A stretch of DNA of 64,000 bases. Source: Apostichopus japonicus (lineage: Eukaryota > Echinodermata > Holothuroidea > Aspidochirotida > Stichopodidae). Below the pieces are notes generated by a model. It was given only the letters and a program-made list of their open reading frames with translations, ran no database searches and was not told the DNA's origin. Position 1 is the stretch's first letter. Each line of letters starts with the position of its first letter. Shown here piece by piece: positions 6,340 through 28,691 of this stretch. The stretch covers positions 1,193,001 through 1,257,000 of the forward strand of contig NC_092575.1 of assembly GCF_037975245.1 (NCBI RefSeq), written 5' to 3'. The position numbers and the translations under genes were made by a program.

Positions 6340-6790
6340 ATCGAGTGTAGAGAGACAAGAATCTGGTGCAAAAGAAATGATCAAAGATAAAAGTAGACAA
6401 AAACCCAATCATCATCTTTAGCTTGTAAGACAGACTTTGTTATGATGAAAAACTCCCTCAAAATAGCTAAGAAATATCATGTTTTGTTTAGAGATATCCT
6501 AGTTTAAAGTTGTCATTTTGTAAATCTCTGATGTCATAGTGCCATAGGAAGTGAAATCTTTTACTTTCTGTTCTTTCTTGTCATATTTCCAAAGTAAAAT
6601 GTTAACTGCCAGTGTTGACATTGATATCGCTGCTTCAATATTTTAGATTCAGCGTATGTTAAATAAATCCCCGAAAATAAAATGCGTAATAAAATAATGA
6701 AAAACATGAGGTAAATGTAGCACAGAGTGACTGGATGATGTCATATGTTAGACTTGATCAAGTCTAACATATGACATCCATTTAAAAAAA
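6340..6790. repeat. dispersed repeat ending in a perfect palindrome
   Basis: The stretch shares ordered short blocks with 14990-16037: CATCATCTTTA, a TCATAGTGCCA-like block, and a terminal GATGTCATAT...TAGACTTGATCAAGTCT. This suggests two remnants of one non-autonomous element family. At 6737-6778 the end is a 42-bp perfect palindrome with no loop (half-site GATGTCATATGTTAGACTTG, centre TGATCA). Confidence 0.5.
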
Positions 6791-7239
6791 ATATATAATA
6801 ACATAATCGGAATGACCGATAACAGATCAACATAATGAAACAATGGTTAACATCGAGTCTGTAACCGTATGATTGATTTTATAAGCATCATGGACGTTCT
6901 TGTGAGACTTCATTGTTATACTTATAGTGAAGTCTTAGTCACTAGTATTGGCCGTGATAGTTATTATAATGGAGCTGTTAGCTCCATCGTATTATGGCGT
7001 ACATTTGGAAATACTACAAACTTACAGGAAGTGTTGACGTAATACGTCCCGATTATTTTGTTATTTGTTCTATCCTCTTCTTATTAATTATCCCACATGT
7101 ACAAATAACATTACGGTACTACTTTATGTAACTTCGCACTCTACCCTGAAAACAATACTGTACTTGGTTTTGGTTACATGACAACAACTACATGGTTAGC
7201 CTGCCATTGCTAAAAACATACAGGCGCCCTCTGTTCAAC

Positions 7240-7389
7240 AGAGGCGTGGGTACCGTAACCTAACAAAACGCGGTACTTTCTGCGTCACAAGTTAGTCGCG
7301 AAATTTGCAACAATATTTGTTATTACATTCTTTTCCCTTGGTGAAAGATATCTGGAGAATTTGACGTCAACTAATCTATTAACATTCAA
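7240..7389 (+). promoter_or_regulatory. probable promoter and non-coding first exon of the downstream gene
   Basis: Unlike its AT-rich surroundings this stretch is relatively CpG-rich (ACGCGGTAC, TAGTCGCG, GACGTCAAC) and ends in CATTCAAG|GTATGA, a good splice donor at about 7390. It lies upstream of an acceptor at 9652 that precedes the first coding exon of the modular gene. It is inferred to be the transcription start region and 5' UTR exon; there is no direct proof. Confidence 0.35.
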
Positions 7390-7639
7390 GGTATGAAGTT
7401 CTAATCTAAGCTTAAGTATTGAATAAAGTTTTTTCCTCATTGGCGTTCTATATCTGACAGTCACTGTGTAGAGTTAGACCACCGAATTCAATTTCCGTCG
7501 AACAGTTACTAATACTAAGAACTGTTCATCTCGAAATGGAGAACGGTTGTTTTGGTCCACTTTTGATTCGAATCATGTAATTAAACATCGTGAAAGATAT
7601 GCCTTGCAACTGAAAAGGTTTCCATTTGTAAAACTTGGT

Positions 7640-8170
7640 GGTAGGCTAGGGACGTTCTAAGTACGTGTTGTAGTATACCCTAGGCTACAGGCCTAAGCTA
7701 GTAACGTTAGGCTTAACATTAGGCTCCTGATTTATTATTTATTTCGTAGGCCCGCCGTATTTATCACAACTAGGCCTAACAGTAGGCCTAAGTAAGTTCT
7801 GTTCTAGGGCTAATACTTAGTCGTAATCAACTGTAGCCTCAATAGAACCTCTCCCAGCGAATTCATTGATTCGTATAGTAAACATCGCATGAAATACTGG
7901 ACCTATCATTAGCCTGAAACTTAAAAAGGCAAGTCTCTATTGAATTAGGCTAGGCCTAAACTAAAGTTAGCCAAACCTGTTTAATTTACAAAGGCATTGA
8001 CAATAAGTGATTCTTGAAGTCGGTATTTATTTCATGATCAATGGACGCCATCTTATTTTTGGGGAAGACAAATATATACTGTACAAATTCCCATATTAGC
8101 CTGAATAAGCCTATATAAGTTAAAGTTTAGTAATAAGTAAATCAATTAGGCTTGGGCCTATTTAAGTATA
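7640..8170. other. TAGGC/AGGCCT-rich stretch in a presumed first intron
   Basis: Dense recurrences of TAGGCT, AGGCCTA and TTAGGC on both strands just downstream of the putative first-exon donor. A similar cluster follows the putative first exon at 21.8 kb. No coding potential was seen. Confidence 0.5.
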
Positions 8171-9652
8171 GAGGGTGGCCTAGATTTTATATAAGCAATG
8201 CTTCTGCAAGGTCTCCCCCGCAGTGATAATTACATTGTAAATAAGATTGTTCTTGTGATGACTGTATGTATGTACTTCAACATTTTGATGCTTTTGTACT
8301 ATCTTCTATGTATTTTTTGTGTGATCATCTTGCGGAAATAAAGAGAGAATATATATTAATCGTAAAATGTTTCCTGAAACTTTGATTGTGATGAAATACC
8401 AGCTTCAATTTAAAGGCTCTAAGGGGAGGATACTTTTAGTTTTAGCCATAAAAAGCATGTGCCTCTGCTGTGGCAGAAAGTAACTTTATTTCAGTAGATT
8501 TACCTGTTATGCAAATTGCACGTTCCTTCAAAAAAAATTAATTCAAATACCTTAGACGTTTCTAGGAAGGTTCTTGAGACTAATTTATGGTCAAACAACT
8601 TTTCTATACTGATTAGTCGACTAGCCTAGTCCTACTTCTGTCAGTCAGTTGATCCAGGCCTAGGCTAAATTTTCATCAACATATATAATGGGATCTATGA
8701 TGGGTACCTATTATAATGTTCGTTTGGAAATTTCATAATTTTATCACAGCAACAGCTAAATTAAGCTAGCCAAACTTGGAAGTGTGCTATCAGGTCTGTC
8801 AAAAGCATTTTTCACATGGTGATGGAAATTTGCAAAGACATTATGTTGTGTTAGCTTACTTGTATCAGCTAGACAATGTGTGTCCGAGAAAAATAATGAA
8901 AACAAGTATCCCCAAATTATTCACTTCTAAAACTGTTGTATTTGCACTTGTTATATGCCAAAATCAAGGATGGTAAATTTCAAGGCCATCCAAGTGAATG
9001 GAGACTATTGTAATAGGAACCGGTACATTGCCATTATTTAGGAAGAGACTGCTACAGAAATTGCTACAAGTTTTTGTCAAAATAGATACAATTGACATTT
9101 TTGCATCATTCAGGAATGTTGTTTAGTTACATGCAAAACTTAGTCTAAGATGTAGATACTATACTATATCCTTGCACGAGAGTATGCTTTGATGCAAAGA
9201 AAATCTGACCGTCGCAGTCATACAGTTAACATGCTGATTGTCTTAAAAGTAACACAACCCAGTGGCAGTGAATTTGTTTGAACCTCTACGACCAGATTTC
9301 TTAGTGGATCATGTCAGTTTTGGATGAGATATTTATATTAATTCATAATAAGAAATTGAAAGGTCTCATTTGTGAAAAATGGAAGGAAGAAATGCACTTC
9401 TTATTTATTTCTTCTTTATTTCTTTTCAAACTGGTGCTGTTTGCGTACACGTGCAGAAGTGGCTCATACTTTTCTTGCTTCTACTGTCAATGTGATTTTG
9501 ATGGAAAAACAAATTCTTACATTTAGACAACACAATCTTTATCATTTAGTTAGAACTATGATATACAGCCCTTTGGAGTAATCTAGGTAAAATTTAATGA
9601 CTGAATCTTTCCTTAGTTTATACTACCCTCAATATCCATTTAACATTTACAG
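8171..9652. other. presumed intron, no gene seen
   Basis: AT-rich sequence without recognisable coding exons, ending in the acceptor TTAACATTTACAG used by the first coding exon of the modular gene. Confidence 0.45.
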
Positions 9653-9663
9653 AGGAGTCCGAG

Positions 9664-11160
9664 ATGACGAGTCTGAGATCATCTCGCCCGAAGAGGAAGA
9701 GGACGGCAAACATCCAGCTCTCCAAGCAGGAGCTGCAAGAGTACCTCGATGATGGATACACCTCTTCAGATATCGCCAAGAATTTCAATGTGAGTCCTGC
9801 CGCAATCGAAGAAAAGATCAGGAAGTTTGGTGTCAAGAGGCGGAAACAACAAAAGAAAGTAATCAAAGGGAAGGGCAGACCGTCAAGCCCTAGAGGGCGG
9901 TCTCCAAGACGCTCCACCTCGCGGTCAGAGGTGACCAAATCTCCTAGACAGGCGAATAGACCCAACAGGACCAGCTCCAAGTCCCCTGTGAAAGCAGTAC
10001 GTGCATCTACCAAGCAGGGAGGCAAGTCTTCTAAATCAGGAGGAAGCAGTCCTACAAGAAACATTGAAGATAAAGAGGTTGATGATTCTGAAAAGCAGGA
10101 AGGTAATTTGTGAGTCCTTACTGTGGGCCTTAAGAATCTATGCAACCATGATGTCATGTTTGTATAAATGTAGTTCCAAATGACCTGTACCTAACACTCA
10201 GTATGCATAGATAAACATTTCATACTTTGTACATAAGATTTCATACCTGTACATAAGGCTCAGAATGCATAGATAAACATTTCATACTTGTACAGAAGGC
10301 TCAGAATGCATAGATAAACATTTCATACTTGTACAGAAGGCTCAGAATGCATAGATAAACATTTCATACTTGTACAGAAGGCTCAGAATGCATAGATAAA
10401 CATTTCATACTTGTACAGAAGGCTCAGAATGCATCTATAGATAAACATACATACTTTGTATAAGATTTCATACCTGTACATATGGCTCAGATTCAATAGA
10501 TAAACATTTCATACTTGTACCTGTCCAGATTCCTTTAAGTTCACAGGATGCTGTTGCTTTTGATAGGGTTTCGATGTTACGAAGGTCATCTTCCATGAAC
10601 CTTCTGAAAATTAAATCCCTCAGGATATAGGACATTATAATGGAAACAAGATTGTATTATGTGTGCCGAGTATCTTTGGGACAGAAGAGAATATTCCCAA
10701 AGTATGATTCATCAGAAAAGTACTGACATTTAATCACCTTATCATTGAGAAAGAAGGTAGGGTGGGTGGGGGGGGGGGAGAGGGAGGGTCAAAAGGGGAA
10801 TATTTTTAGAGCAATTACCTATCCCTACAGACACTGTCACTCATAAAATTTCAAGCTCTCATTCTTGAAAGTTAACCATTTCTAAAGTAGCCCTATCTGT
10901 ACAAAATATATGGAAACTTGAAGCAATATTTAGCTGGACAAAGTCAAGTCTTATTGTTTAATTGTTCATCAAGGTAAACGGTCAATTCCTGTTTTTTCTT
11001 GTTCAGATCCATCGTTAAATACTGTAGTTGTGCAAGTCATCAAGGATAATCCAAATGATGATCTCGACCAAATTCATTCACTTTTAAAATCAATGGGCTT
11101 TGACTTCGATAAAGCTTACGTGGAGGAACATATGCAGAAAACTGTTGTCGAAAAACAAAC
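9664..11160 (+). other. module 1 of the triplicated gene (HTH exon + B exon)
   Basis: Part A is IQLSKQELQEYLDDGYTSSD followed by IAKNFNVSPAAIEEKIRKFG. Then comes an Arg/Ser/Pro-rich basic linker, then part B after the intron, beginning D-P-S-L and continuing VVVQVIKDNP and IHSLLKSMGF. The Asp codon is split G|AT across the intron, as in modules 2 and 3. B1 is the most diverged copy and lacks the Arg-rich end seen in B2. Confidence 0.65.
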
Positions 11161-14100
11161 CACAGAATCGACTGAGGGAGAAGATAAGAAGGCTCAACCA
11201 CCGAAGGAAGAGAAGCGCCCTCGTGGTAGACCGAAGAAGCAAGACAGTGCTGGCCAGAAGGAGGAGGAGAAGGAGGAGGAGGAGAAGGAGGAGGAGGAGA
11301 AAGGGTCCTCGGGCACAAAGGGACCACCCTTAAAGAAAGAAGAGGGCGATAAAGAAGGGAATGATATAGAAGGCGATGTTGTAGGAGGGGAGGATAAGAA
11401 GGAAAGTGAAGAAAAAGAAGAGTGCCCAAAAGTAGAAGGAGATTTATCATCGGACAGTAAGCAGACTGCGACGGCTGAAGAGGGAACAGAGAAGCTACAA
11501 GAAGGGCAAGACGAGAATGTAAAGGAGGACGCCGACAAGAAACCACAGAAAGCAGCAAAAAAGCGGCCAGGCAGACCCAGAAAGAAGCCAAAGAAGGCTA
11601 GAGCAGTATCGGAAGGCGGCGATGGCGCTACTCATGAAAACGGTTCCGAAACAGAGCCTGGGACTGACGGTGACAAAGAGTACAAACCAAAGTAAGATTT
11701 CAAATTGACTTTGTTGCTTGGTTGATCTTCCATGTGTCGACCTTTTATTTATTTATTTATTTATTATTTTTTTTATTTATTTGTTTCATCACATTTTTTT
11801 TATTTATTTGTTTCATCATCCTTTACTTAGTTCAAGCATCTCTTTGCTGTCTTGTTTGGAAGTATTATTATAGGCTTAAGAGAATATTGAATGATATATT
11901 ATAATCTATATGTATCTTAAAAATGTAGAATTGATTTCAAAGTAGAAATTGTCCAGGACCAAAATGTGAATTGTAAAATGTAAAATAAAACATGATGGAC
12001 ATATTTTTCAAGGTTTAAAAGAGGGGGGAAAAAACAAAACAAAATACAACAAGAGTGATGATGAAGAAGTTTTCAAATTTAATTGTAACTTGGAAGTTTA
12101 TGAACAGCACAGTGTGAAGTCATCTATACTTCATTCTTGGGGCTTGATCCAACACCAGGCTGAAGCCCCCTTTCATGCAACTGAGGAATGGGATGCAATT
12201 TTTTTTTCTTTTGTTCAACTTAACTGTCATTGCTTTACTTAACAGGAAACGGGGACGAAAGAGGAAAAGGTTCAGTGAGGATGGTGAGGAGTTGTTCATG
12301 ACAAAACGAGGTCGACCTTCCCTTCAGCTCTCAGAGGAAAACCTGAAACACTGCATCGACAGCGGTCTGCCCAGACAAAAGATCGCCGAAGTCTTTGGAA
12401 CGTGCATGAGAAGTATCAGCCGATACCTTGAACTTCACAAGATGAGGAAGAGCGACAAATTTTACAATTGTACAGGTAAGTAGAAAAAAAGTAGCAAAAT
12501 GTTTCGGGAAGTGGTCAAAAGTTCTCAAGGAGGAATTGCACAATTTCATCGCAAAACACACACTCTTCTGGTCACAGGTATGTTCTGTCATCGATAATCG
12601 CTCCCGTGTGTTCTTTGTCCCTAGTGGTCTGCGCGCGAATGGTGAAAGAGGTTGTGAACCTAAGTGTAAGGTGATCTGTGTTTTGTCGCAGTAATTCATT
12701 CGTTTACATTACTGCCAACTTGTTTCCACAAAGCATGAGTTTTGCCATTGTCCACACCTCTCTTTAAGTAAAGTAACCGCCGTTTTTTCGCATTTTGTTT
12801 ATAGATGCTGAGCTAGATGAGATGGTTTCCAAGATTTGCAAAGATCACCCGGATTGGGGTCAGATTCACATTCAGGAGGATTTTGCAAAGAGGGGGATGT
12901 TCTTCCGCAGAGCCCAGATAAGGAACAGCGTGCGCAGAGTCGACCCCATCGGTATAGAACTCCGCAAGCTCAATAACCTGAAGAGGAGGTGGAACCGTGG
13001 CTCCTTGAAAAAATTGGACAGTATTTTACCGGCTGACGGCATCAACATGACCTCCACGGATTCATTCCTCTGTCAGCCGCCTCGGACCGGACTGAACGGT
13101 CTAAGTCAAGAGGACTCGGTGAGGCTCCTCAAGGACATTGTGTACTCCAGCAAGAGAAAGTATGTGGAGTACCCGCCACCTTTCAAGACGGAGGAGTCCT
13201 CTGAAGAGTCATCGAAAGAGGCAGGGGAGGAGCAGCAGGGTGACGAATTAATCAAAGCCGTAGAAGCGGTTCAGGTGAAGACTGAAGGCGAACCACTGGA
13301 AGCAGTAGAAGCGGTTCAGGTGAAGTCTGAAGGCGAACCACTGGAAGCCGTAGAAGCGGTTCAGGTGAAGACGGAAGGCGAACCGCCGGAAGACGCTGTG
13401 GCAGAGCCGGAGATGACCTCAGGGAAGGACGAAGCTACTGACCAAGACAGCACACCCACCGCAGAACCGACTGTGTCAACTGAAGGCTTGTCTGTGGAAA
13501 AGGATACCTATTGGAAGCATCGACTTCAAAGGTATATCATGGAGATGATGGATTGTCATCATATTGAAATATGATTTAATGGTGCCTTTTAGAAATAACA
13601 GATGCCCAGCCTAAACTATTTGCCCCAGTCGGTAGTCTGTCGACAAACATTATCCCTCCCAGACTTGATAGGTAGTCTAGCATCACCAGACTGTCAAACA
13701 TCCTGATCCCTGGCCTATATATCTGACTAACATCATCCCTCCCAGACTTGATAGGTAGTCTAGTATCACCAGACTGTCATACATCCTGATCCCTGGCCTA
13801 TATATCTGACTAACATTATCCCTCCCAGACTTGATAGGTAGTCTAGTATCACCAGACTGTCGTACATCCTGATCCCTGGCCTACAAGTGAAGTCCTTCCC
13901 TCTTGATTAGGCCACAGTATATTTGGAAGAGCTCTCTTTCTTGGTCAAAATTGCATATGAACAATTTTAGGGAGATTATTTGGTGTTAGTAAGCACAATG
14001 CCAGCTATACTTTCAATGTTATCAGGTTGACTAGATATTGGTAGGTCTATACATTATGTGAGAGTTATTACTGTAGTTTAATCTATCACAACCTGCTGTC

Positions 14101-17100
14101 TCTTTAGACCAAACTGGATGAAAGAATTGCCCAATGGAAACACACTGAAGGTTTTATTATTTCCCTCACTAGGAGATTGAAATGGTAGTAAACAGGTAGA
14201 TCTTCCCTGTAAGATTATTGTAGGGTAATCATTTATTGCTGAAAATCACAAGCAGGGTATGGTCCAGTCTTTACATATTTTCACAGCAATGCTGAATTTT
14301 GATGAGTTTTCTTTTCAATAAGTTATGTTATACGGACTAATGTTTCACATCTTTGCCGATATGTATATTACATCATTGCTGATATCTAGAAAGTTTGCAA
14401 TATTGTTTTTGCATTTTTGTTGTGCAATGCCATCTATATTATTCCCTGTTTGTTTATACGTGACATGGGTGACATAAAGATAGAATCCCAAACCAAAAAT
14501 TTGGCAATGACGACTTTGATGCTTTATGTTTTTGTCTTTTCTTGACAGTATGGTTATGTCAAACAAGAGAGCGGGCAGGCAAGCTGCTGCAGAAAGGAGA
14601 GGCCCCGAGGTGAAGATTCCCAAGGAGGACCTTAAGGAGTGCGTGGACCTGGGTTACTCCTCCACGAGGATTGCAGACAAATTCAGTACTAGCAAACACA
14701 ATGTGAGGAGACACCTGGACATGTACAAACTTGGAAAGGCTCGCAGATTTGAAATTCTAACAGGTAATGAGAGGTGGCTTTCACCAGGGGGCGTGGTAGG
14801 GGGAGGGATAAGGGGTCCATCTTTTACCAAACCTATGGGGTATTACTTCACATAAATTTGTTATCTAATCAAACTCAAGTTTAAAAGGAATCTGATCTGA
14901 TTAAGCAACAAATTTTTTAATGTTTTACTGTAATAGGTTTTAGGGTCTGTGGGATATTAAAATGGTAGAGTAGTTGTGTAAAGAGACCAAAATCCAACCA
15001 TCATCTTTACTTTGTCTGGGGCGGTCATAGTGCTAATCTATGACTTCATGGTGCCACATAGTGCACACAAACTTTTCACTCTCTTTCTTTTTTTTATCAT
15101 GCTTTCAAGCTTGAAAGTTAACAATGTTAAAGTAAGTGCCTTGACAGTTTTAAAATAAAGTCGGACAGTCCATCATAACCGTGCTGTAATATTACTGATG
15201 ATATTACTACAAACAAGAAGGAAAACAAACGAAAAACCCTAAACTAGATTTCAGCTATTTTAGTCATGGAACAATACATTCTGGAATAGCGCCCTTAACT
15301 AATCACAAACTTGTACAAGCCAGTACTGTAAATATTCTCAGAATGGCTGAATATAGGCCCACCACACACTTAGGACATAGCGAGCCTAGCTTCTGAATGT
15401 TAAGTCTGAGTAACTATTGTATACAGATCTCCCTAAAAATGAGTAAAAATGAATATCAGCACCACAGAACATCCTAAAAATGACACTAATTATCAAACTG
15501 TTTTACATGCAAATGATCCCAATTCCCAAACAACTAACTAAAGGCCATTCGTACACTGTAAATATTATATGTCATACGCTAGCAACAACATAACGTTAAC
15601 CTATACGGTGAACAACAACATTGCGAAAATGTGCGTAACTTTGGCTGTGAATTTCTCTTAAAAGAAAGTAGCTTTTACGCAATTATCTAGCATATAAAGA
15701 AAAGTAACAATATCAAACTCAAAACTAACCGTTCCTCTCTTCAGCCTATTGATCAGGTCACGAAAAGATGCAAAAAATTTTATATCACTTGTCAATGTGT
15801 TTCAATATTAAAGTCTACAAAGATGGCGATCGGGCTCAGCGAGCTAAACTCATGAAATAGATGGTGCCCTACCAAAAAAACTGTACTGAATCAACATATC
15901 CGGTACAGTCAACACTGCTGTTATCAGGTCGTTGCTAAAAACCATCTCCAGTACAGTAAATAAACATTGCAATAAATAAGGCAACAATTTAAATAAAAAT
16001 GGAAGCAATGATGTCATATTTAGACTTGATCAAGTCTCCAGCCTTGTGTATGAAGAAACATGAACTCTGTGATATCTCTCAAATTAAATAAGATTTATCT
16101 TTTGTTCATGGCAGTTTTATCTCAATCACAAAATTATTCCTTCATATGAGACTTTTTTCTTTTCTTTTCTTCCTTAATCAGATGAGACCATCGATGAAAT
16201 TGTCACGTCGGTGATTAGAGAACACGGTGTACTCAAAGGGAGGGACGTGTACGACAAGATCAAGGAAAGCGGACTCCAGATTCGGAAGGATGACATTCGC
16301 AAGAGTCTCTGCAGGTTGCACCCGAAGGGACTGCACAGAGGCGACCCCTCCATCCTGAAAAAGAGTTGGGATGCGGTGCAAAAGCAGGAGTCGGACGTCG
16401 CCTTCCTCATGCAAGAGCACCGCGCCATCGTCGATGGGAACGAGGAGGACGTGATTGTTTTGGACACGGACGAGCTGGCCAAACTAATGAACCACGAAGG
16501 AGGGATAGTACTCGTCGATGAACATGGAAACATCATGGGTGGCCAAGGGGATGTCGAGGAGTACCACCACCACCAACAACAACAGCAGCAGCATGAGCAG
16601 GAGCAACAGCAGCAGACACACTGTACCATCGAAACAGGTCACGTCGAGAACGGCATGGTAGTACTGCAGCACCAGGAAGGAGTCGTGGTTACAGCCGGTG
16701 TAGACACAGAGCAAGATGGTACACTCTTGAGTAATCAAGAGCAGCATAATCCTAGCAATGTCGCTGCTGTTGTTGCCAGTGATGAAGCTCCGTACCAACA
16801 TCCAGGAACCGTTGCTGAGGGACAAGAGATGAGTAAAGAGGAGAGTCTGGAGAGAACTCAACATTACCACCTGACACAGACTACCAATAACGAAAGCAGC
16901 TTAACCATCGCAAACCAGGAACATGCTCCTGAGAATAGTGTGGCACCCGTTGGTGAGGCTGCCGAGGAAACTACGCCTCAAGGTGATGCCGGTAATGACG
17001 GTACATCCGAGGTGGGCCAGACCCCTCAGGAAACCCCTCCTGCTGTTGAGTCACATGTGGTGGAGGCCAGCGGGGCCTCCCAAGCAATACCCACATCCGA

Positions 17101-17539
17101 AGAGAGTCAAATAAGTGCCATTATTTTAGAGTTTAACGTTCCACAGGGGCAAGAGTCCGGCCAGGGTGTCGCTCACACCAGCCAAGAGGGGCAATTTGCG
17201 ACCACACAGGAGACCTCCCAAGAGGTATACTTTGTGCAAGGTGAGCAGCAGAGCGAAGAAGTGAGGAGTCTGGTCGTGGTCAATGATTCTCAGGAAACGG
17301 AAGAGGACGCTAAAGATAGCGTTGGCAAAGAGGAGCATATCATTATGCAGCTGACAGAACCTGCTTCGGTTCCCGAGGGTGACACTCAGCAGGGCGTGTC
17401 CCTCACCTCCTTGAACACAGTACGACCAAACCAACTTTCAGCTCAGGTTTTACTCGAATTGGACAGAATCGCGCAAAATTTACAGTCACACGAAGTCCAG
17501 GGAGAGCCTGCACCAGCTGTGTCCACACAAGGACAATAG
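9664..17539 (+). CDS. three-module HTH/AT-hook putative DNA-binding protein, about 1217 aa, unnamed
   Basis: Coding exons 9653-10102, 11007-11691, 12246-12475, 12805-13531, 14549-14763 and 16182-17539 join with perfect phase continuity and good GT-AG sites; the sum from the first ATG is exactly 1218 codons. The protein repeats a two-part unit three times: part A, a 45-50 residue predicted helix-turn-helix (residues about 18-60, 402-450, 716-762), and part B, a helical segment beginning with Asp (about 147-190, 452-515, 766-830). Between them are basic AT-hook motifs (RPRGRPKK about 219, KKRPGRPRKK about 331, KRGRPS about 395), acidic linkers, a Lys/Glu repeat, and a Gln/His-rich acidic C-terminus. 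The A+B pair resembles what I remember of the region preceding the catalytic core in integrase/transposase-like proteins, but no DDE core is present. It is likely a nuclear chromatin or transcription factor. The function is unknown. Translation could start further upstream, since E-S-E precedes this ATG in frame. Confidence 0.8.
10190..10525. repeat. 41-bp minisatellite in intron
   Basis: About seven copies of a 41-bp unit containing ATAGATAAACATTTCATACT and GTACAGAAGGCTCAGAATGC. The central copies are nearly identical and the outer ones diverged. It begins about 90 bp after the exon-1 donor. Confidence 0.9.
12300..13005 (+). other. module 2 of the triplicated gene
   Basis: Part A contains LSEENLKHCIDSGLPRQKIA and ISRYLELHKMRK. 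Part B contains DAELDEMVSKICKDHPDW, a Gly turn (AKRGMFFRRAQIR) and VRRVDP. The VRRVDP element is the point at which I recall integrase-like relatives continuing towards their catalytic core; here it runs into a basic segment (LKRRWNRGS) and an acidic linker. Confidence 0.7.
13258..13400 (+). repeat. coding 51-bp repeat with KxE motifs
   Basis: Three in-frame copies of a 17-residue unit EAVQVKTEGEPLEAV. Each has V-K-[T/S]-E, which fits the SUMO acceptor consensus psi-K-x-E. They lie in the acidic linker between modules 2 and 3, residues about 604-650. Confidence 0.8.
13620..13888. repeat. 83-bp tandem repeat, three copies
   Basis: AGACTTGATAGGTAGTCTAG recurs at 13661, 13744 and 13827 with CACCAGACTGTC and CATCCTGATCCCTGGCCTA between. 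It lies in the intron directly after exon 4. Confidence 0.9.
14555..16385 (+). other. module 3 of the triplicated gene
   Basis: Part A contains IPKEDLKECVDLGYSSTRIA and VRRHLDMYKLGKARRF. Part B, in the next exon, contains DETIDEIVTSVIREHG, ESGLQIRKDDIRKSLCRLHP and SWDAV. The exon structure and split Asp codon match module 2, so the intron (14764-16181) sits at the homologous place. Confidence 0.7.
14990..16037. repeat. dispersed-element remnant in intron 5
   Basis: Shares ordered blocks with 6340-6790 and ends in GATGTCATATTTAGACTTGA followed by TCAAGTCT (16010-16037), a half-matched version of the palindrome at 6737-6778. The central part (around 15100-15950) has no counterpart there, so the boundaries are approximate. 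Confidence 0.4.
16563..16622 (+). repeat. coding CAN-rich tract (His/Gln run)
   Basis: CACCACCACCAACAACAACA and CAGCAG tracts encode HHHQQQQQQHEQEQQQQTH at about residues 893-912. Such runs are typical of flexible regions of transcription regulators and tend to vary in length between individuals. Confidence 0.85.
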
Positions 17540-17602
17540 AGTCGGCGCCAGTGTCCACGCAGGGACAATAGAGTCGGCGCCAGTGTCCACGCAGGGACAA
17601 TA
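17519..17602. repeat. 32-bp repeat spanning the stop codon
   Basis: Two full copies and one partial copy of GTGTCCACGCAGGGACAATA followed by GAGTCGGCGCCA. The first copy supplies the last coding residues (VSTQGQ) and the TAG stop; the next two copies are in the 3' UTR. Confidence 0.9.
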
Positions 17603-20600
17603 GCAGTAATGGATGTGCTGTCAGTCATATGTTTCATATTGTGTGAAGTTTGAAGAGAATTATGAGAATCCACAGGGAGGATCAGTACTTCAGATTCAAA
17701 TGGAAATGGATTTTTGGGGGAATATGAGGAAAAGTTACAAAATAATAATGAAGTTTTTTTGAGATAATGGATGTAATATGTATATATAGAGAGAAGGGAG
17801 AAATGGTATCGCTGTGCCAATAGAACAATGTAGGAGGATGGAGATGTTGTATGCATCTCAACAGTTGACAAGAACAGGCAGGTTTTATCATTCAGTTAGA
17901 TAAGTCATCTATGTCTTAAGATGGCTATATGCTTGTGGATGGCTACATCCCTTGTTAAGATGGCTACATGCTGAGGCTCCCAATGATAGAATTGTAACCT
18001 TGACAAGAATGTATGAAAGAAGTGCATGTTATTACTGAAGCATCTTAGGCCAGTTTGCTTTTAATAGTAGAGATAATATTTAAGTTATCATAGAAAGCAA
18101 GAACAAGTTTTTTCTAACTTTTATGGCATAAAAATATCAGTTTAAAAAGTCTATGGAATAGGGTGGTTTTTGTTTGTCTGGCCAGAGAAGGGGGTGGGTG
18201 GGGGGAGGAGGAGGAGAAAGAATGACATGTTCATGATAAGGTCTGAAAAAAGAGGTAAGGGTCACACCCTTGCCTTTTGTTTTATATTTGTTGCCCCTCA
18301 GCAGACTTACCCAGATACTCATAAACCTAGGTTTTGAATTTAACCAGGATTTGGATTAGAGAATTACCCTTTTTTTGTGGAAATTCATACACAGGAAGAT
18401 TTATTGGGATATTGGTTTTTAATACAATTCTAGAACTGTGATTAGAGGAATTGAACTTGCTGCGAATCAAGGAGATTGAGGATATTCATTAGTGTTTTTT
18501 TGTTTTAAGTTTTTGTTATGGTTCTTGGGGTCCAGTAACTGTCCACCCATCCACAATCGATGACAATAGCACCACATGTGAATGAACATATTAAGCATCA
18601 GGACATTGCAATATTCTCAGTTGGTGAGCTTTTCATGATTTTTCATCAATAAATTTGTCTTTTCATCGATGAAATTGGCTGGTTTTTCTTTGATTAATTT
18701 GAACCACTTGCTTTATTGATGATTGTCTTTTTTGGCATTAGTTATGTTTTTGCTGATTGATCATTTTAATAAGTTTACCATCGATTTCTTGTTCTTCATG
18801 TTTCAATAATAGTTCACAGGTTCAGAAATATCGTAAACTACAAATTGGTAAGATTTGGGGAGCCTTATTGTTTGAAAACAAAATGCTGAAAAGAGTTATA
18901 AACAGCATTTAATATACACTGAATTTGTCATTTCTTTCTTTTGAGATCATTTTGACAGAATAATAAACACCATGTAGAAGCTGTTTCGTTATTCTTACTG
19001 GGTATGTTCATGTCATTTTTGGATTGTCTCTGAGTGGATTGGTTATTAAGTTTATTCTCATAAGAGTATGATATGAAACCTTCACAATGCCAGCTTTTGT
19101 CTGTTGCCTATTGTATGTTAGATGTCCTAGTTTATTAATTAATAATTAATAAGGGAGATTAAAGGGTGACAGAACATTAGTCACCATATGTGTAAGTGCA
19201 AGGGGAAAAATGGAGGTGCTTGTAATGTTGCTACAGCTATTCTGGTTTTCAGTTGATTAATTCCAGTTTTCTAGCTATTCCGGTTTTCCAGCTATTCTGG
19301 TTCTCTAGTTTTCCAGCTATTCTGGTTGTCTAGTTTATTAAATTGAGATAGATTAAAGGGTGACACAACATTAGTCTTCATAGGTTATAGTCCAAGAAAA
19401 AAGAAAATTGAGCTGGTAGTAAAGTTGCTATAATATTCCGGTTTTCAATATATTCAGCTTTAAAATGTATGCTAAATCTCTGAAATGATGAATGACATTG
19501 GCCCCTCAGTGTAGGTCTTACTGTTAACATCAACCCATTAATTTATACTATCTTATAACACCACCCATATATGTTCTTTTTTAACTTGATGTAAATAACA
19601 GAGTACCCTTGGTTGACTATCAACACTATTTGGAATTGACCCATTGTCATGTATTGTAAACATGTTATTTAAGGTCGTAACAAGTCTTATTTTCCTATAG
19701 AGTTTAGTAGGGCATCTGAGAATATGACCTAGAGGTCTGTGTTATTAGACTAAGCAGTCCATCCACTTTCACTGATGGCTCTTTGATACACTATGTAGGG
19801 TCATTCTCGAAAAGTGGTACATCAGCACAACCTGGATTGGTAGCGGTACGTCTTAATGTTCTACAAAATATGCAAATTTAGTCTGTGCCTAAGGTCGTCC
19901 TTTAAGATGAAGGTAAAAAATATTTTACACTGCAGGCATGTACAACTTCCTTGTCAGTGTCAGGTACTGTCTACACATAAATGATATATTGACAATAAGA
20001 GCTGTTAGCTTTACCAGAGAACTGAAAGAATTTCAGATTCATGAGTTTTGTTGATAGCTTTTCGATTTCACCCATCTATTGATGAATTTTCTTGTTTAGT
20101 TTCATTCTATTGCACTGATTATTGAGCTGAAGTACAGGTTTCTTGTGGAACTTTTAGAGTGCTGTTTTAACAATAATAATAACAAAATTTTTAATAATGA
20201 ATTAATTAATAATGATAAAGTTTTCTAGGGGATTTCTTGTTGGTCATTGTTGATTAATACAGGAATATAAATCAAGAAAACATTTGAAAATAAAGACAGA
20301 AATCTGGAATGTGTGCATGATCAATTCCTTTTTTTATTATCGTCACAAACTTTTCCTTTTTATCGCATTTCTTTCATGTTGGAAGATAAAATTATAAAAA
20401 GAAAAAACTGTCTGCATATTTAGTTAGTTCTGGTGAAGATGTAGTAAATATAATGGCAAAACCTGCACAATGATTTAACCATCTTACACAGTTACTCCAA
20501 TTTAAACACCACAAGGCAATTTACCAATAGTAACAGACTTCCAACTGTTGCAATCAATTGACAAGGCATAATTTCAAATGTGGTACCATTTTCATGTAGA

Positions 20601-23254: not shown

Positions 23255-23724
23255 CTCTCTCCCTTGGGTGAACAATGGCGGAACAAGTCGAGTTATCTGT
23301 CACCTTCGAACACATCACTCTGAAGAGAGGAAGTGGGTTCCTAGTAGACGGATTCATCTACACACGCAAACTCGTGCGTAAGGACCGAGTCATGATAAGA
23401 TGCCAGGAGCGTAAATGTCCAGCTAAGGGGTACATCTCAGATGAACTGGCGATCATTACAAACGCAAGCCACAACCACGAAAGCCCGGATGTACGGGCTA
23501 TCAGGTTCAGGGCCCAGCTGAGGGAGGCCGTCGGAGAAGAACGCAACATAGGCCTGTCTGTCCCGGACGTCTACGAGCAGGTTAAGTGGAACTTTCTGCA
23601 ACAGGCTGAAACGGTGCAACAGAGAGAGGAACTGGAAGCTTCATTACCGGCACGATCTACTGTAGAGAGGGCGCTACATCGTAGGAGAAGTGAAGTGATG
23701 CCACAAACATCAGCCTTCCGTCAG
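23255..23724 (+). CDS. FLYWCH-type zinc-finger exon
   Basis: An ATG at 23275 with reasonable context (GAACAATGG) opens 150 codons that end exactly at a donor (CGTCAG|GTAAAT), phase 0. Residues about 20-68 fit a FLYWCH finger: GFLVDGFIYTRKLV, then RCQERKCPAKGY with the two Cys, and NASHNHESP with the two His; the usual Trp of the name motif is replaced. The rest (SVPDVYEQVKWNF, LPARSTVERALHRRR) looks like the segment that follows FLYWCH in MULE-type transposases and their host relatives, stopping before any transposase core. FLYWCH fingers bind DNA or protein. In phase it continues into the QPRT exon at 25512, so it may be the N-terminus of a fused product; a separate alternative transcript is possible. 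Confidence 0.7.
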
Positions 23725-25511
23725 GTAAATCAGTTTGGCTGTCTAGTACTTAATTAATTGGTGATTCTCATATTAGCATGACAATGGAAAGAAGTTGACC
23801 CCAGGATTGGTTTGTTTAGCAAGGCTTCATTATCTGAAATATATGTCCAACCCTATTTCCTTTCTTCATTCCCCTTTCCCTCATCAATTTTGTCTCTTCT
23901 CTCCCTTCCCACTTCCCACTCCTTCCCCCTACTCCTACCCCCTACTCCTACCCCCTACTTTCTCCGTCCCCTCCCTCTGCCCTCTCCTCCACCTCTCGCT
24001 CCTTTAGTTTGAAATCCAAACCTGTCTAAAGTGACTATTATGATTGGATACCTTTGTATGAATACTATATAGGCATCAAATCTCTGTGTGTGATATTGAA
24101 CACAGACATTTCTTGCATATATTGTTTGCTGTATTGACACCAACTGCTGGTATGCAGCATACAGTAGCTTAGCAGTATTGTGCTTGTATTGATATTGAGA
24201 TGGTTAACATGCTTGCAGCTGTGTGGTGTGCATTTAAACAGTACTTAAGTGTATTTCAGCTATTACAGTCACCTTCTGTTGACAGTAGTGTATAGTACTG
24301 TTACTGGGTGCTTCCATGTCTTCACAAACTTGTTCTGCAGTAAGTACAGTAAAGGCATGTCTTGTGCATTCTGTCTTTTACAATATTAAAACTTTTCTAC
24401 AATAATTTGTGTTTTTATGTGTGTTGTTGTTGGAGCCTACACAGTACATGGTACACTGCTCAGGGGACAGTACAGTGTTATCGCTGCATGTGGACAATAT
24501 TGTTAAGTGTCTCTGTAGTATTATTATCTGGGGTTCGACCCATCAAAGTGTCAATGGAGGCACATTGGCATGCATGCACTGTATTCAGTACTTACTGTAC
24601 TGTTCCAAATACCAAGCATGTAGCATGTACCTATGTGTGTGTGTATATATGCTGTAATATATATGCTGTATAAATATACTGTTTATATGCTGTATGTATA
24701 TGCTGTATATACACTGATGTACAGTACTACCGTGCTACAGTACTACTGTGCTGTGCTGGTTGAGATATAATTGAAGTGTAAGGGTACTTAAATGAAAATT
24801 ATCAGAAGGGAAGATTTGTTTTCTCTCATTTTAACTGTTTAACAATTTTATTTAGCAAATGATGAAATGTACTTCACATTGTGGATCAATTGCAATAAGC
24901 TCTGTATGCACTGTGATAATACTATCATAGGGAACCTTGTGGTCCTTCAATCTTTGTGATTTAATGCTCCCTTCTAGAGCTTTTGTAGGGTGGTATTTGT
25001 TATATTTGCATAAGGTGCAACATACAGTGGAGAAAGCACATTCCAAGTTTACAAAGTTTTAGAAAGGATTGTGCCCTTTGCAGTGTTTCTTGGAATTGTA
25101 CTGTGCATTTTAATGTAAATTGTTCATCACAAAACTGGTCCGTTCTGTTTATCAGAGCTATTGCAAGGCTGATTAGACTTAACTCTAATTTCCCTATATG
25201 TTATTTATTGATGAAATTGGCACAGTGACACAGGTACAAGTTACCGTGGAAACCTTATTAAAGATCCTCTCATTCTTAATCAGATATCTCTGAAATAGTA
25301 TGTCTAAATAAATAGCTTTATACGTGTACTTGGATGATACAACGTAAGTATGTAGATATAAAAAATTACCGGTTTACTGACACAATCGTTCATCCTTGTA
25401 GATCTCAGGGTTAACGGGCTGAACATCCTTTCCACAATTAATGTTATAATTTAACATAAACATGTCACCACTATTATTCAGCTGTTACATTTTCTTTCTT
25501 TCTTTCTTCAG
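23725..25511. other. intron between FLYWCH and QPRT exons
   Basis: Contains a C/T-rich tract (23860-24005), a low-complexity stretch of GTACTGT/ATATGCTGT words (about 24240-24760), and a (TTTC)n tract right at the acceptor (25490-25511). No other exon was recognised. Confidence 0.55.

Positions 25512-28691
<3,180 letters not shown>

Follow-up and report, generated by a model that had tools for sequence, protein, structure and literature searches.

We analysed a stretch of 64,000 nucleotides of the Apostichopus japonicus genome (the window), which lies on contig NC_092575.1 (C15), with emphasis on a six-exon gene at positions 9664-17539 of its forward strand. Comparison with integrase genes elsewhere in the same genome suggests that this gene is probably a coreless, single-copy host gene descended from the DNA-binding front end of a DDE integrase of the PF24764 (rva_4) family, in which a unit of two domains, a helix-turn-helix (HTH) domain (A) followed by a second helical domain (B), was tripled in tandem while the catalytic core was lost. 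The predicted exons are as follows.

9664-10102, +, exon 1 (coding part, ATG start at 9664): HTH of unit 1 (A1) and a basic tail; phase 1 donor
11007-11691, +, exon 2: B1, then an acidic linker bearing two AT-hook motifs
12246-12475, +, exon 3: HTH exon of unit 2, with RGRP ahead of the HTH
12805-13531, +, exon 4: B2, then an acidic linker with a 45-base in-frame repeat
14549-14763, +, exon 5: HTH exon of unit 3
16182-17539, +, exon 6: B3, then an acidic, Gln-rich C-terminal tail up to the stop

Splice sites were predicted from the DNA sequence alone. Joined, the six exons give 1217 codons plus a stop, all five introns are GT-AG, and their phases run 1, 2, 1, 2, 1, with the three A|B introns in phase 1 and the two B|A introns in phase 2. 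The single open frame of 1217 residues proposed in the initial annotation is thus borne out by the GT-AG introns and the phase chain. The order of HTH exon, phase-1 intron, second helical exon and phase-2 intron recurs three times, the third B exon continuing to the stop, and a repeated layout of exons and phases of this sort is the expected trace of a two-exon cassette duplicated in tandem. The guanine-cytosine (GC) content is 0.47-0.53 in the exons versus 0.29-0.41 in the introns. When the in-frame sequence of each exon was dinucleotide-shuffled 1000 times, 3, 0, 32, 1, 27 and 0 shuffles stayed open for exons 1 to 6, respectively. Tandem repeats inside the exons, with units of 12, 15 and 45 bases, keep the frame.

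The six domains were located with profiles searched against the 2155 six-frame open reading frames (ORFs) of at least 20 residues in the window, and lie at the following positions.

9706-9849, +, A1, HTH domain; E 5.9e-9, rank 1 of 2155 window ORFs
11007-11143, +, B1, degenerate second domain; net charge -5; E 1.6, rank 4 of 2155 (longer profile)
12307-12456, +, A2, HTH domain; E 9.8e-6, rank 3 of 2155 window ORFs
12805-12989, +, B2, DAELDE...RRVDPIG...LKRR; E 1.5e-13; ends just ahead of the integrase-core position
14604-14747, +, A3, HTH domain; E 2.4e-7, rank 2 of 2155 window ORFs
16182-16339, +, B3, second domain of unit 3; E 0.003, rank 2 of 2155 (longer profile)

The A profile drew on nine integrase loci in other parts of the genome and contained no window sequence. 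It placed the three A exons in ranks 1 to 3, with the next-best ORF at E 1.7, which confirms that the three HTH-like segments first seen in the sequence are real. Judged by profile matches to solved chains, A is an HTH domain: a profile of the window copies and their relatives matched the solved HTH chains 2x48 (2.8e-7), Hin (1hcr, 2e-4) and Mos1 (0.013). A profile made of the three window copies only found 2x48 at 0.0014 and nothing else below 0.01 besides the designed repeat 8vd6.

The initial annotation had also placed a second segment, starting with Asp, after each HTH. The Asp start holds for all three, and its codon is in each case split G|AT by the phase-1 intron. B2 is a strong match, B3 a weak one and B1 marginal. 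With a short B profile free of window sequence, B2 scored 2.1e-10, B3 0.085 and B1 4.1. A longer one reaching into the core, likewise without window sequence, gave 1.5e-13 for B2 and 0.003 for B3, followed by an unrelated ORF at 0.2 and B1 at 1.6. When the profile was enlarged by B2 and B3, B1 improved to E 0.17 (rank 3). For each of the six segments, none of 2000 composition shuffles equalled the observed score. Because its score is insufficient alone, B1 is backed by its position, the phase of its intron and the shuffle test taken together. The alignment of B2 runs from its first residue to LKRR and halts ahead of the Y..GPNS.WHIDG start of the core; since the match stops right there, the core seems to have been lost as a block.

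The genome search for the PF24764 core, in which 150 of 224 candidates were scored, gave 143 matches at E <=0.001, many of them on contig C17. Relatives were studied in 20 stretches fetched around such cores. The A domain was recognised in 10 of these (E up to 1.3), and it therefore marks subgroups rather than the whole family. In 8 of the 20 (L016, L017, L020-L023, L027 and L028), an uninterrupted B domain containing RRVDP or a similar motif was recognised at E <0.05. It was found by reading in L009, L015 and L018, whereas L014 (0.0022, in pieces) and L012 (1.5) were left out of the count. The remaining core stretches of the 20 held neither A nor B in convincing form. The initially suggested link to integrases was therefore right, in that the same A and B domains precede rva_4 cores elsewhere in the genome.

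The introns of these relatives also point to a common origin. Five of the ten core-bearing A loci (L022, L023, L017, L027 and L028) share the position and phase of the A|B intron with the window gene: their A exon ends in G|GT and their B exon starts with AG|AT, giving the same split Asp codon. L021 has the same B start, and its A exon was not found. The window gene and the PF24764-core genes thus share an HTH domain A followed by a B domain ending in RRVDPxG, with a phase-1 A|B intron in five loci. They differ in that the latter carry one recognised A+B unit and a DDE core, whereas in the window gene the unit occurs three times and the core is absent. Origin from an integrase DNA-binding region, as suggested at the outset, is supported by this pairing of A and B with cores and by the intron common to five core loci. 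Met codons lie in frame at 12298-12300 (exon 3) and 14550-14558 (exon 5), shortly ahead of each internal HTH and about where translation seems to begin in the A exon of relatives; they are perhaps relics of start codons.

The reported absence of a catalytic core also stands: PF24764 had no match on contig C15 in the genome search (150 of 224 candidates scored), and three cores compared with the window by tblastn gave nothing better than E 1.8. We then counted a place as core-bearing when an rva_4 core lay no more than 10 kb downstream of it on the same strand. With B2 as query (E <=10), there were 17 places outside the window, each overlapping a core-bearing place. Querying with the L022 B domain (E <=10; checked against 116 of the 143 core rows) gave 45 places, its own included, and 39 had a core. 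The other six were the window gene (E 5.8e-5), L032, which holds a core start, and four coreless places, L030, L031, L033 and L034, with no core in 5.6 kb of sequence; these four may be fragments. Apart from these short matches, no coreless gene other than the window gene was noted. Queries from its six exons found no second copy in the genome. A match of B3 at C8:14433033 (E 0.417) was weak and is treated as chance. Judged from its sequence, the gene shows loss of the catalysis domain with retention of the DNA-binding domains. Six inverted pairs occur in 6500-20500, none of which encloses the whole gene; the ends of related elements are not known. In Pfam, no family exceeded its cut-off on any exon, and exon 6 had no match up to E 1.

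Amplification inside the gene, as the initial annotation had it, is backed by the phase pattern and by the A exons of two units. A2 and A3 are each other's best non-self matches in the genome (A3 to A2, 3.1e-5; A2 to A3, 3.4e-5), and the other matches of A1, A2 and A3 (4, 5 and 4 places) adjoin PF24764 cores when compared by eye. Going by their A exons and phases, and contrary to the unit tree, units 2 and 3 probably arose by duplication from one another. Unit 1 belongs to the same type, but when it arose relative to the others is not settled by the tree.

Several observations weigh against this origin and history. A1 as query finds neither A2 nor A3, and it is closer in identity to L009 (16/46) than to A2 (10/46) or A3 (11/46). 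B1 as query has no other match in the genome, and its profile score falls short of ordinary significance. Used as queries, B2 and B3 retrieve one another no better than at E 6.4 and 4, respectively. For B, the solved structures in the PDB gave no credible match, and the top PDB match of A, 8vd6, was rejected as a relative, as it belongs to a protein-design paper and is uninformative on kinship. In L009, L015, L025, L016 and L020, the A|B intron is, by reading, not at the shared place. A second intron predicted after RRVDPxG in four of the five intron-sharing loci and in L021 is missing from B2, which reads GGT at 12951-12953 (exon 4), where these relatives have a putative phase-1 GT donor; the fifth locus, L017, has no GT after RRVDPxG and reads GAT. 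In a tree of joined A+B units, largely unresolved apart from one starred branch (99/99), that branch joins unit 3 to the multi-exon subgroup but units 1 and 2 to the other subgroup, and the three window units form one group in 0% of 200 bootstrap trees. The window branches are very long, however, forcing the units into a single clade costs only 2.61 log units, and the approximately unbiased (AU) test does not reject it (p-AU 0.19). Finally, the net charges of B2 (+1) and B3 (0) are at the low end of the range in six core-bearing relatives (0 to +5).

If the gene descends from such an integrase, the ancestor would have been an intron-bearing integrase gene made of exon A (HTH), a phase-1 intron, exon B (RRVDP domain) and the core. 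The A+B exon pair would have been kept and multiplied to three in tandem, and the catalytic core lost. HTH domains of transposases in general recognise element ends, and in the core-bearing relatives A and B should do so as well. The product is probably a nuclear DNA-binding regulator, which would use several A+B units, chiefly 2 and 3, to contact DNA simultaneously. By analogy with the end-binding domains of transposases, each unit would read a bipartite half-site. B1 is acidic and degenerate, so unit 1 has drifted and may serve contacts other than DNA binding; the charge of B1, -5 versus 0 to +5 in six relatives, makes it probable that some of the predicted DNA contact of unit 1 has been lost. 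The regions between and after the units contain the following features.

11216-11239, +, AT-hook motif RPRGRPKK (motif scan, exon 2)
11561-11587, +, AT-hook motif KRPGRPRKK (motif scan, exon 2)
16340-17536, +, acidic/Gln-rich tail; net charge -59 over residues 833-1217

The two exon 2 motifs fit what we take to be the AT-hook consensus. Weaker AT-hook-like cores were picked up by the motif scan at residues 70 (exon 1), 377 and 395 (exon 3), and none in the exon 4 linker or the C-terminal tail, both of which are acidic. Of the AT-hook and acidic linkers first described between the units, the acidic linkers hold, while consensus AT-hooks are confined to exon 2, between units 1 and 2. The RGRP ahead of A2 resembles the GRP ahead of the HTH in the relatives L009, L015 and L025, and it may therefore be inherited. 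In the proposed mechanism, the AT-hooks of the first linker would assist in gripping DNA, and the acidic/Gln-rich tail would bring in transcription or chromatin factors. A 32-base repeat at 17519-17603 begins in the last codons and extends beyond the stop, so the C-terminus may, as a guess, differ between alleles. More tentatively, and with somewhat less than an even chance in our assessment, the bipartite end-recognition region of an integrase may have become a three-unit array comparable to a string of zinc fingers but built of two-domain, two-exon cassettes, which would read a long composite site or bridge sites via flexible AT-hook/acidic linkers; PF24764 integrases would then be an additional source of animal transcription factors.

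The same origin would also be compatible with other present-day functions. The product could bind the ends of rva_4 elements and so repress or block its relatives, since the gene keeps the domains expected to contact those ends and since different chromosomes carry core-bearing copies that are nearly identical (L020/L029, about 99%; L017/L023, 95-99% over about 11.6 kb with a gap), which suggests recent movement or duplication in this genome. The ends and target duplications of the core-bearing repeat on C6/C23 were not found, the similarity reaching the end of the approximately 11.6 kb stretch compared, so that this repeat may be either a transposon or a segmental duplication. We consider this function unlikely, because the identity of B2 to the aligned relatives is at most 40% and that of the A domains to the two relatives compared is 15-35%, so that the old specificity has probably changed.

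Alternatively, the modules might now serve protein contacts, with the AT-hooks alone touching DNA. The charges favour such a role: B1, B2 and B3 carry -5, +1 and 0 against 0 to +5 in the six relatives, and A1-A3 carry +2 to +4, a lower charge than in most of the nine relatives compared (+3 to +8). But Arg and Lys are, by reading, abundant in the latter half of B2 and in the putative recognition helices of A2 and A3, which argues for DNA contact and makes this alternative a rather improbable one in our view.

The origin itself can be read in the opposite direction, namely that an old animal transcription factor had the A+B units first and integrase elements captured one of them. The lack of a second gene copy agrees with this, as do the very long branches of the window units in the unit tree (1.5 to 6.3, far longer than those of the core-bearing rows), which fit great age. 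However, A and B occur with a core in at least two subgroups of differing intron layout, the window gene is the only coreless one noted besides the four short matches, and a single core loss would be simpler than repeated capture, so we give this direction a small probability. Smaller still is the chance of a non-working gene, that is, a decaying or wrongly joined model from neighbouring integrase relics: the model was built from sequence only, B1 is degenerate, related core-bearing copies with stops are present in the genome and the unit tree splits the units, yet six exons are open in one phase chain of 1217 codons with five GT-AG introns, the exon/intron GC contrast is clear, few or no shuffles stay open, the exon repeats of 12, 15 and 45 bases keep the frame, and such strong divergence of the units should, if selection were absent, have produced stops. 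Descent from the front end of a PF24764 integrase therefore remains the reading we prefer.

A domesticated transposase DNA-binding region is a known kind of gene. FLYWCH1, ZBED4 and ZBED6 each contain several copies of a DNA-binding domain. They resemble the window gene in that a transposase DNA-binding domain is reused in a transcription factor, and differ in that single zinc-finger domains of other superfamilies are repeated, whereas here the unit is a two-domain, two-exon cassette. FLYWCH transcription factors are of Mutator origin, and the survey of animal transcription factors that reports this lists six source superfamilies in its abstract, PF24764 integrases not among them (PMC10027918). 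Closer in kind are the vertebrate genes Gin-1 and Gin-2, whose derivation from Ginger1 was established through introns of conserved position and phase (Bao and colleagues, PMC2836005). Like the window gene, they are host genes from an intron-bearing integrase-like transposon, and the evidence from introns is of the same type. Unlike it, Ginger1 belongs to another integrase family and has an H2C2 zinc finger (PMC2836005); the window gene showed neither a zinc finger nor a core, and its DNA-binding part is tripled. Imagin, found in malacostracan crustaceans, is likewise derived from Ginger1, is multi-exon and lacks the DDE triad; in amphipod Imagin, the DDE domain is wholly lost and a disordered region stands in its place (PMC12863088). 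It shares with the window gene the state of a domesticated, multi-exon, integrase-derived gene without the DDE triad, and differs in having a zinc finger instead of an HTH; the passages available describe no multiplication of its DNA-binding part (PMC12863088). A Ginger-type origin of the window gene was dropped, as Pfam gave no H2C2 zinc finger and no Gypsy-type core family on the six exons up to E 1. Two other leads were set aside: IS481EU, an early candidate, is reported from parabasalids (PMC10045372), and the sea urchin COMPASS-like protein is described as a homeodomain protein (PMC3784565).

Searches of open-access literature with a few terms, some of them aimed at other questions, gave no description of the window gene or of a domesticated PF24764 integrase among the papers listed; this is weak evidence that the source family and the tripled two-exon cassette are undescribed. 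The domesticated integrases compared above (Gin-1, Gin-2 and Imagin) all come from one zinc-finger family, and here another family seems to be the source. It would have contributed nothing but its DNA-binding cassette, copied as a pair of exons whose intron phases still record that history. If the gene is expressed and conserved, PF24764 integrases would join the sources of animal DNA-binding proteins, and the gene would offer a testable case of the change from a transposase end-recognition module to a multi-site reader.

Other features of the window include a clear host gene downstream, with quinolinate phosphoribosyltransferase exons (PF02749, PF01729) at 25455-26138 and 27062-27610 on the forward strand. 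The ORF at 23272-23757, on the same strand, resembles a FLYWCH zinc finger (22.9 bits versus a Pfam cut-off of 23.6), a domain also known from transposons. Upstream of the gene, a perfect 42-base palindrome occupies 6737-6778, and its central 18 bases recur in intron 5 (16020-16037); it is perhaps a small dispersed repeat.

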